Shown in pieces: positions 21,465 through 23,111 of a stretch of 64,000 nt of DNA (position 1 is the stretch's first letter; the number at the start of each line of letters is the position of its first letter). The notes beneath the pieces were generated by a model, which saw nothing but the letters and a program-made list of their open reading frames with translations, ran no database searches and was not told the DNA's origin. The DNA is from Pseudobdellovibrionaceae bacterium. Lineage in GTDB: Bacteria; Bdellovibrionota; Bdellovibrionia; Bdellovibrionales; Bdellovibrionaceae. The stretch covers positions 2,326,565 to 2,390,564 of the forward strand of contig JAHBUV010000001.1 in the NCBI GenBank assembly GCA_019637915.1. Direction: 5' to 3'. The position numbers and the translations under genes were made by a program.

Positions 21465-21518
21465 GCGGCTGGACCATTTTCCCCTTTCCCCGCGAAGCCG
21501 GCGGCGATAAACTGAGTT

Positions 21519-21672
21519 CAAACCATTCTGATGGTTGGGAAGGAGGTGGTGCTTATGGCATGTTCCAGTAGTCACATAAGCAAAATGGAGGTGGCGGCCT
21601 CATAAGTCGCTCTTCAGAATTTGTGACTGGGCGGCCCGTGGAGGCACCACCTTCAAGTGCCGCCCCCTTTAT
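21519..21672 (+). ncRNA. Candidate structured RNA or regulated leader with a 16-codon ORF
   Basis: Several pairings can be drawn: AACCAT/ATGGTT (21521-21526 with 21531-21536), a closing stem AGGTGGTGC/GCACCACCT (21544-21552 with 21644-21652), GCTTATG/CATAAGC (21551-21557 with 21575-21581) and AGTCGC/GTGACT (21605-21610 with 21623-21628). A rival stem GGGCGGC/GCCGCCC (21629-21635 with 21659-21665) followed by CCTTTAT cannot form together with the closing stem. I do not recognise a known riboswitch, SRP, 6S or tmRNA motif. This is a structural inference only. Confidence 0.4.
21555..21605 (+). CDS. Putative 16-residue peptide MACSSSHISKMEVAAS
   Basis: The ORF is preceded by AAGGAGGTGGTG, one of the best Shine-Dalgarno matches in the window. 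The peptide has one Cys next to three Ser and a His, no membrane segment and no signal. Its ATG is inside a possible hairpin (GCTTATG with CATAAGC), so translation could be gated by structure. It could be a leader peptide, a small functional peptide or chance. Confidence 0.4.
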   Translation: MACSSSHISKMEVAAS

Positions 21673-21740
21673 CCTTCCTGATTCCACCCGTCCCTTGAAT
21701 TCCCCTTGTCTGATCCCTGAAATTGCGAGATGCCTCAGCC

Positions 21741-23111
21741 ATGAAGCCGGCTGAAATCACGTCCTGGATTGGTTCCGAACAACGCTCCTCCACGCAAACG
21801 CGCCAGGTGCCTTCACCCTTCGACGGCTCGTCGATCGGCGTGGTGCATGAAGCCAATCCCTTGGATTTCGTGCAGGCCCTGCCGCTGGCGAAAAAAGCCC
21901 AGGAGTCTTTCGCGAAACTGCCGCCGGCGGAACGCGCCCCGGTGCTTTTGCGGGTCGCCGATCAAGTGCGCCAGGCGGAATCCGACCTGGCTTTCGCCTG
22001 CGCCCTCTTTGAAGGCTGGTCACAAGCCTACGCTTTGGACAAAATCATCCGCCCGGTGGAGCGTTTGTTCCGCGCCCTCGCGCAGGAGCTCGCGCTGAAG
22101 CCCGAGGACGAAGAGGGCCGTGACGCCAGCGGTTTGCTGTCGATCATCGCCCCGGCGCCGATGGCTTTCCGCGTGATCGGCGAGCGCCTGGCGCCGGCGT
22201 TGGCGGCGGGCAACGCCGTTTTGGTGAAAGTGCCTTCGCATTCGCCGATCACGGCGAATCTGTGGGGAGAAGTCCTGCGCGGGGCCTCCGTTCCCGCGGG
22301 CCTGGTGAGCCTGCTCGTCGGTCGCGGCGCCGACATCGGTCCCTTGTTCGCGAGCCATCCTTCGGTGCGGGCCCTGTCTTTCGCCGGCCGGCCGGCCACC
22401 GCCGCGGCCCTGGCGCGCGCCGCGGGCGAAGGGCACAAAAAATCGCAGATCAGCGGCGGCGTGAAAAACTCGCTGTTGATTCTGCCGGAAACGGACCTCG
22501 ATTCCCTGCCGCAAATCCTGGAGGGCGTTCTCACCGGTCTGGGGAGATCGGCCTTTTCTCTGTCGCGGATCTTCGTCACCGAAACCATGGCGGAGGAATT
22601 CTTCAGCCGTTTGAAAACTTATTTGGCCACTCTCGAACCCTTGCATTCGCCGGGGGGCCGTTCGCCCTGGACGCCGTTCGCGGACTCGCGCGGCCTGCAG
22701 GCCTGGGAGAAGGACCGCGCCACCGTCGGCGCGGATCGCGGCAAACTGATCATGGCGGAAAAAGAGCCGGGCTCTTTTCATCTGCCGCCGGTCTTCGCGC
22801 GCGACCTCACCAATTGCTCGACCCTGCAGCTGGAAGAGACGTCTTCGCCCCTGGTGATCGTCGACACCGTCAAGTACACCCACGAGATGGCGAAGTGGAC
22901 GAACACCGGCGACTTCGGCTTCGCGGCCTCCATCTGGGGTCCTGAGGACAAAGCCCGCCGGCTGGGCGCGAAGCTTCAGGTCGGTCAGGTCTGGATCAAC
23001 GGCTGGTTGAAAGGGGATCAGGCCTTCGCGGGCTGGAAGAAATCCTTCTTCGGCAATCCGGATTCCCGCTGGCAGGGTTCGTTTTATTCGGACGTCAAAA
23101 CTTTGACCTGA
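21741..23111 (+). CDS. Aldehyde-dehydrogenase-fold protein lacking catalytic residues
   Basis: The 456-residue sequence follows the ALDH fold end to end: LAPALAAGNAVLVKVPSHSP corresponds to the NAD-binding region and TGDFGFAASIWG to the C-terminal part. The catalytic cysteine position (normally GQ-x-C) reads LGRSAFSLSRIF (about 265), the general base of LELGGK is replaced in SQISGGVKN (about 234), and the PWN asparagine is replaced in APAPMAF. All three key residues are thus absent. It is probably a pseudoenzyme or has other chemistry. ATG at 21741 is preferred over TTG at 21723. Confidence 0.85.
   Translation: MKPAEITSWIGSEQRSSTQTRQVPSPFDGSSIGVVHEANPLDFVQALPLAKKAQESFAKLPPAERAPVLLRVADQVRQAESDLAFACALFEGWSQAYALDKIIRPVERLFRALAQELALKPEDEEGRDASGLLSIIAPAPMAFRVIGERLAPALAAGNAVLVKVPSHSPITANLWGEVLRGASVPAGLVSLLVGRGADIGPLFASHPSVRALSFAGRPATAAALARAAGEGHKKSQISGGVKNSLLILPETDLDSLPQILEGVLTGLGRSAFSLSRIFVTETMAEEFFSRLKTYLATLEPLHSPGGRSPWTPFADSRGLQAWEKDRATVGADRGKLIMAEKEPGSFHLPPVFARDLTNCSTLQLEETSSPLVIVDTVKYTHEMAKWTNTGDFGFAASIWGPEDKARRLGAKLQVGQVWINGWLKGDQAFAGWKKSFFGNPDSRWQGSFYSDVKTLT

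Follow-up and report, generated by a model that had tools for sequence, protein, structure and literature searches.

A family of small structured RNAs with a mini-ORF between two Shine-Dalgarno sequences in Bdellovibrionota and Chloroflexota

We describe a family of small RNA genes in which two Shine-Dalgarno (SD) sequences bracket a mini-ORF and the second lies at a constant distance before the stop codon. The copy from which we started is located in the window, i.e. the whole stretch of 64,000 nucleotides of Pseudobdellovibrionaceae DNA that was analysed, and it is orthologous to the attack-phase RNA APsRNA2 from Bdellovibrio bacteriovorus HD100, whose published transcript lies at the matching place. 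The ORF and the spacing between the second SD (SD2) and the stop are conserved, selection on SD2 acts at the level of the RNA, a hairpin upstream of the first SD (SD1) covaries, and in HD100 the transcript is free-standing and expressed in the attack phase. The best explanation, which we put forward tentatively and at a little short of even confidence, is a mini-mRNA whose strong SD1 recruits ribosomes and whose SD2 holds the terminating ribosome. The transcript was published in 2013; the family, the ORF and the two-SD architecture are new with respect to the literature searched.

Position and parts of the element

The element is preceded by a HIT-domain gene and followed by an aldehyde-dehydrogenase-like (ALDH-like) gene (Pfam HIT 6e-14, Aldedh 2.6e-67). 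Its features are as follows, with the evidence for each:

21508..21513, + strand: weak -10-like hexamer TAAACT (sequence); may be part of a promoter
21521..21536, + strand: P1, 6-bp hairpin AACCAT-TCTG-ATGGTT (covariation); predicted transcript start
21540..21551, + strand: SD1, AAGGAGGTGGTG, a very strong Shine-Dalgarno (complementarity to the anti-SD)
21551-21557/21575-21581, + strand: P2, hairpin GCTTATG/CATAAGC that encloses the start codon (swap test)
21555..21605, + strand: mini-ORF MACSSSHISKMEVAAS, 16 codons, ATG to TAA (ORF conserved in relatives)
21570-21576 with 21622-21628, + strand: P4 candidate, AGTCACA in the P2 loop with TGTGACT (by eye; weak for the window itself)
21587..21591, + strand: SD2, GGAGG within the mini-ORF, stop 11 nt downstream (constant spacing in relatives)
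21586-21594 with 21647-21655, + strand: P3, TGGAGGTGG with CCACCTTCA, covering SD2 (minimum-energy fold; swap test)
21629..21672, + strand: terminator-like hairpin GGGCGGC/GCCGCCC (21629-21635/21659-21665) with tail CCTTTAT (sequence)

The SD, the 16-codon ORF and the hairpins had been placed at these positions by the original prediction, which was made from the window alone, and all of them are confirmed in the sequence. It did not contain the covarying P1, the SD2 located 11 nt before the stop or the family as a whole. The 16S rRNA 3' end GGCTGGATCACCTCCTT is present in the window genome. In relatives the -10-like position is occupied by TATTCT, TATGAT or ACAATA. A consensus promoter and terminator scan of the window returned no site for the element; the T tail of the terminator-like hairpin is short and the hairpin was missed by this rather strict scan. 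Folding of positions 21510-21690 gives -67.9 kcal/mol compared to -56.2 for dinucleotide shuffles (z -2.4), and 3 of 200 shuffles fold as well, i.e. the region folds better than the other 197.

The ALDH-like protein (21735-23108, + strand) matches Pfam Aldedh across its whole length. By eye it shows neither the catalytic Cys (GLGRSAFSLSR) nor the usual Glu motif, and the Cys is apparently also absent, again by eye, from the homologs beside the element at loci L003, L008 and L009. Judging from these sequences, the neighbour appears to be a conserved non-catalytic ALDH-like protein.

A search of the window against the 4227 families of Rfam gave no match at the gathering score, and at E<=10 the region of the element gave a single chance-level match on the other strand. 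For 17 further loci we obtained three matches (RNase P, c-di-GMP-I and tRNA), all of them away from the element. The earlier statement that the element matches no known riboswitch class thus agrees with the absence of any Rfam match on it. A tmRNA was ruled out, as ARAGORN finds none in the window.

Distribution of the family

A DNA-level search of 59 genomes returned nine with a match, including the window genome, and the matches were centred on SD1 and the ORF. We then used a covariance model, R1, which was built from a 12-copy alignment (A2) reaching from the P1 hairpin to the stop, with P1 as the sole structure. At the family level R1 matched 49 of 66 genomes at E<1e-9 and 57 of 66 at E<=1. 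At the order level 97 of 140 genomes were matched at E<=0.1, at the class level 89 of 143 at E<=0.01 and at the phylum level 93 of 368 at E<=0.001; as its consensus contains SD1, SD2 and the first part of the stop codon, R1 favours copies having these. Strong matches occur once per genome as a rule. The element is not universal, because 17 of the 66 family genomes have no match at E<1e-9; a strong match is lacking throughout genus g5 (six genomes) and in several individual family genomes (G059, G027, G010), which may be due to loss or to divergence. We also found the element in B. bacteriovorus strain kdesi (L116).

We also scanned genome contigs with a pattern consisting of SD1, 24-54 nt, GGAGGTG, 9 nt and TAA or TAG. 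The scan yielded 110 stretches. Among the 80 listed were Bdellovibrionota, Oligoflexales and many Chloroflexota (Dehalococcoidia, Tepidiforma); the analysis covered these 80, of which 13 were discarded as chance matches on visual inspection. The short ORFs of the Oligoflexales and Chloroflexota copies include, e.g., MDHHSRSYDRTFALEVTSS. Directly upstream of several of these copies there is a sigma-70-like promoter sequence (by eye), and terminators are seen too. A sequence-only model built from the Chloroflexota copies (R2) found one copy in Tepidiforma flava and, at E<=1e-4, gave matches in 43 of the 301 Chloroflexota genomes searched. We inspected 30 of the 43 positive genomes and found SD1 and a mini-ORF in these. 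Together with locus L259 they form the second Chloroflexota set (repeats dropped; n=23 for codon counts, n=22 for P4).

The data sets differ in how far they can speak to the spacing between SD2 and the stop. The 72 nonredundant Bdellovibrionia copies were found by the covariance model and not by this spacing. For the Oligoflexia and the first Chloroflexota set the search pattern itself fixed SD1, the 11-nt spacing and TAA or TAG, so that the spacing is circular there and these features are no evidence in those sets. The second Chloroflexota set was found with a model built from the first and is semi-independent at most. In a table of 28 Chloroflexota copies, which includes some repeats of earlier loci, the stop follows a G-rich SD2 after 11 nt in 17 copies and after 8 nt in four. 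ORFs were called at a length of at least 10 codons near SD1. Of the 60 loci retrieved with R1, three without SD1 (L098, L106, L110) were excluded. Locus L180 was excluded from the group counts, and of the weak R1 matches at the family and order level (E about 0.01 to 1) the analysis of copies covers those with a retrieved locus. The copies in Bdellovibrionota and Chloroflexota may go back to shared descent, transfer or convergence.

The element in HD100 is the transcript APsRNA2

Genome G036, which we take to be B. bacteriovorus HD100, has its R1 match at 535,182-535,271 (+) on a chromosome of 3,782,950 bp. APsRNA2 is listed for HD100 at 535,188-535,321 (+), with a length of 134 nt (Karunker et al. 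2013, PMC3627812, Table 2). The first base of P1 in HD100 is base 535,188 and coincides with the mapped start of APsRNA2; the listed end falls inside the stem of a terminator-like hairpin in the HD100 sequence. The mini-ORF of HD100 has 15 codons. The RPKM values reported for APsRNA2 are 8,869 in the attack phase, in which the cells do not replicate, and 204 in the growth phase (PMC3627812).

In the sections of PMC3627812 available to us APsRNA2 is an AP-specific small non-coding RNA without significant homology outside B. bacteriovorus, and it is presented there without an ORF, a second SD, a structure family or a wider distribution. Searches of the open-licence literature of PubMed Central turned up neither the family nor its ORF or architecture, and PMC3627812 was the one relevant paper among the results. 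PMC3818213 was considered as a further source and rejected, as the part available describes a different sRNA.

A free-standing gene rather than a leader

The element had been read as either a regulated leader of the ALDH-like gene or a dual-function small RNA. In the window itself a cis-acting leader, i.e. an attenuator or an unrecognised riboswitch, is consistent with the ALDH-like gene following about 120 nt downstream of the mini-ORF on the same strand and with the mutually exclusive stems that can be drawn there. Across the family, however, the neighbours vary: upstream we found HIT or AspS (AspS by eye), downstream ALDH-like, CheA/HPt-like or methyltransferase-like genes (the latter two by eye), and members of the genus of HD100 have a different downstream gene from that in the window (CheA/HPt-like by eye; L005, L007). 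The next ORF downstream is encoded on the opposite strand in 21/72 Bdellovibrionia, 5/11 Oligoflexia and 9/22 Chloroflexota copies. Terminator-like hairpins follow the element in 36/72 Bdellovibrionia copies (shuffled mean 3.8), in 4/11 Oligoflexia and in 11/22 Chloroflexota copies, and the HD100 transcript is discrete. Given the variable neighbours, the opposite strands and the terminators, the element is not a leader; control of the ALDH-like gene in cis is largely refuted and we consider it very improbable. A leader peptide acting in cis by ribosome-mediated attenuation was ruled out on the same grounds, as there is no fixed downstream gene and the strands differ. What stands of the earlier reading is the dual-function sRNA, which fits both the HD100 transcript with its own start and the conserved ORF. 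Like such RNAs, the element is a free-standing small transcript.

Selection on the mini-ORF, SD1 and SD2

Each of the 72 Bdellovibrionia copies contains an ORF, 13-21 codons in length (sd 1.3); reading in the other two frames is stopped after a median of 6 and 3 codons. In Chloroflexota the mini-ORFs have up to 29 codons. SD1 is exceptional in strength: at least 9 contiguous bases match the anti-SD complement in 50/72 Bdellovibrionia copies compared to 1/74 flanking long ORFs, and 33/72 copies reach at least 11 bases, whereas the flanking ORFs have 9 at most.

In 55/72 Bdellovibrionia copies exactly 11 nt separate SD2 (GG[AG]GG) from the stop. In 11 copies SD2 lies at 7, 8, 10 or 14 nt and in six it is absent. 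Among 118 flanking long ORFs we found no GG[AG]GG at 11 nt from the stop. The distance between SD1 and SD2 varies from 30 to 49 nt in Bdellovibrionia, so the fixed quantity is the distance from SD2 to the stop. In the 55 copies with 11-nt spacing the codon spanning SD2 is GAG in 52 and GGG in three cases and never GAA; the preceding codon has G in its third position in 55/55 copies while encoding nine different amino acids. These two observations together indicate that selection acts on the RNA and not on the peptide.

The codon content is also biased. We observed 41 AGT codons in Bdellovibrionia (6.6 expected), 12 in Oligoflexia (1.1 expected) and 34 and 36 in the two Chloroflexota sets (0.9 and 1.1 expected). 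In every one of the four sets the three most enriched codons include Ser AGT and Cys TGT; ATA tops the enrichment in Bdellovibrionia only (45 observed, 4.0 expected). The inner codons are enriched in AGT and TGT without a fixed run of codons for one amino acid, and AGT is present in just 36/72 Bdellovibrionia mini-ORFs. In 40/72 copies the mini-ORF has a Ser codon (TCN) directly before its stop.

Two further observations concern stop codons. The 72 Bdellovibrionia mini-ORFs end in TAG (39), TAA (29) or TGA (4), and the 118 flanking ORFs, a background that includes spurious ORFs, in TAG (32), TAA (51) or TGA (35); relative to the latter the mini-ORFs favour the stops that release factor 1 recognises. 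Out-of-frame stops in Bdellovibrionia are in excess in one frame (118 vs 79.7) and in deficit in the other (122 vs 136.2).

RNA structure

P1 is the stem with direct covariation evidence. In the 12 sequences of alignment A2, 97.2% of the cells are paired compared to 74.8% after shuffling, with 0 of 500 shuffles as good, and all six pairs show changes on both sides. Sliding the columns by 1-3 reduces the pairing to 19-44%. P1 is clear in Bdellovibrionia (65/72, expected 23.5) and Oligoflexia (11/11, expected 2.3) and not clear in Chloroflexota (9/22, expected 5.5).

For the remaining stems we compared the pairing of each segment with its own partner to the mean over swapped partners; as related copies share ancestry, the resulting counts are non-independent trials. 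For P2, the predicted GCTTATG/CATAAGC hairpin with the start codon inside, the own partner was better in 91/99 copies (Bdellovibrionia 63/66). The signal for P3 is weaker (72/99; Bdellovibrionia 48/66); P3 is part of the minimum-energy fold and invariant within the genus Bdellovibrio. A pairing of the P4 type, between the early ORF and the segment before the terminator, was supported in the second Chloroflexota set (16/22 copies, median rank 0.07); the counts are 14/22 in the first set, 6/11 in Oligoflexia and 55/72 in Bdellovibrionia, for which this test and P3 overlap. With ten Chloroflexota copies RNAalifold returned the terminator and a 3-bp stem and nothing else, and with fifteen Bdellovibrio copies, some with rows short at the 5' end, no pair changed on both sides. 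As the Chloroflexota copies are too divergent and the Bdellovibrio copies near-invariant, the evidence for P2, P3 and P4 is that of the swap tests.

A nine-bp stem that closes the region and uses part of SD1 can indeed be drawn (GGAGGTGGTGC with GCACCACCTTC, 21645-21655). The minimum-energy fold, however, pairs the downstream segment with SD2, and SD1 paired with the downstream segment no better than with swapped partners (42/99). The stem is therefore not conserved; we rejected it and used it as an internal control. The GC-rich hairpin before CCTTTAT is present in the window. It crosses P3, so that the two cannot both form as simple nested stems and are mutually exclusive there, as had been proposed, but this form of the switch is absent from a sister species of the same genus (L019).

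We also noted motifs near the terminator. In L235, L242, L246, L248, L251 and other Chloroflexota loci GGCAAC, GACAAC or GTAAC recurs before the terminator and could pair, with matching changes, with GTTGTC or GTTAC in the ORF (by eye). In the Oligoflexia loci L128, L146, L149 and L171 ACCTCCTTT stretches copy the 16S rRNA anti-SD beside the terminator.

Proposed mechanism and alternatives

We propose that the element is an independent gene and encodes a small, structured mRNA about 130-190 nt long, whose transcription would start at the P1 hairpin and end at the terminator. The exceptionally strong SD1 would load ribosomes on the short, AGU/UGU-enriched ORF. With a ribosome at the stop and the last sense codon in its P site, SD2 would be spaced to pair with the anti-SD of that ribosome. 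SD2 then lies 8 nt upstream of the P-site codon, which is within the usual range at initiation, so the terminating ribosome would be held; while held, it would keep P2 and P3 open. Strong loading, slow codons and an SD at the stop together would result in slow transit and ribosome holding. From the sequences we infer that the mini-ORF is translated and that SD2 holds the terminating ribosome. Pausing of ribosomes at internal SDs has been reported, and AGU is the sole codon with considerable pausing when Caulobacter grows in minimal medium (PMC4117421). Two findings argue against holding: SD2 is base-paired in the predicted folds, a pairing that a translating ribosome would have to melt, and SD2 is missing or differently spaced in the 17 Bdellovibrionia copies given above as six and 11.

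As to its purpose, parking or metering ribosomes in poorly translating cells is presumably the simplest, ahead of a peptide product or of freeing the 3' part for pairing in trans; the main rivals are sRNA gating and Ser/Cys sensing. In the former, translation of the mini-ORF would gate a trans-acting sRNA, with the ribosome at the stop opening P3 (and P4) and so exposing a C-rich 3' segment, similar to an anti-SD, for pairing with target mRNAs. The free-standing transcript in HD100, the downstream segments complementary to SD2 and the CACCTCCTTTC-like sequence beside the terminator in several Oligoflexia copies are all consistent with this, whereas Bdellovibrio has an imperfect form of the anti-SD-like segment (ACCTTCGCC) and the sister of the window genome (L019) lacks it, and on balance we regard gating as unlikely, though a serious competitor. 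A starvation sensor, in which the AGU and UGU codons tie the progress of the ribosome to charged tRNA-Ser(GCU) and tRNA-Cys, would account for the codon enrichment in all four sets and is in line with the disappearance of AGU pausing in Caulobacter in rich medium (PMC4117421). Since no fixed gene follows the element, which itself speaks against a sensor, the outcome would have to be in trans. Moreover, half of the Bdellovibrionia ORFs are without AGT, ATA is more enriched there, and AGU/UGU may be an RNA motif instead of codons; such a sensor seems to us rather improbable. Still more doubtful is a micropeptide as the product, with a Ser/Cys-rich start, EV near the end and often a final Ser. 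The ORF is retained in all copies and a C-terminal Ser is found in many, but the choice of codons at SD2 and before it follows the RNA, the body of the peptide is hypervariable and in-frame length changes are common.

Discussion

Short ORFs with an SD, alternative stems and enriched codons are known from attenuator leader peptides of the trp and ilv type, and the element shares all three with them. It differs in that it has no cis-regulated gene, and a fixed distance between SD2 and the stop is foreign to leaders. The frameshift site of RF2 (prfB) resembles the element in having an in-ORF SD shortly before a stop, and in prfB this SD acts on the ribosome at the stop. Its distance to the P-site codon is about 3 nt and the shift leads into a long gene; in the element 8 nt lie between SD2 and the P-site codon, and there is no fixed downstream gene. 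A prfB-like programmed frameshift was rejected on the basis of this spacing, which is found in 55/72 copies. Dual-function sRNAs such as RNAIII, SgrS and SR1, which act by pairing and/or through a peptide, are likewise free-standing small transcripts with a small ORF; we know of none with two SDs and a constant distance from the second to the stop. The parts are thus known singly (leader ORFs, dual-function sRNAs, SD-induced pausing) and it is the bracket of two SDs that sets the family apart. To our knowledge no kind of RNA has been defined by two SDs around a mini-ORF with the second at a constant distance from the stop, and no other family is known to us in which RNA-level selection keeps an SD at such a distance. 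If the reading as a ribosome-holding RNA fails, the family would be a variant of dual-function sRNA.

We know of no predators among the Chloroflexota, which disfavours a role specific to predation. It is possible, although we hold this with considerable reservation, that the elements of Bdellovibrionota and Chloroflexota form a new class in which SD1 loads ribosomes, AGU/UGU codons slow them and SD2 pins them at the stop, as a ribosome reserve or a report on translation in non-growing cells. The constant position of SD2 makes SD-mediated control of termination testable on a tiny, natural transcript from a single-copy gene. For the model predator, a published and unexplained attack-phase RNA gains an interpretive frame and is not confined to B. 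bacteriovorus; if the ribosome-holding class is real, such RNAs would keep ribosomes in reserve, or report on translation, while cells are not growing.
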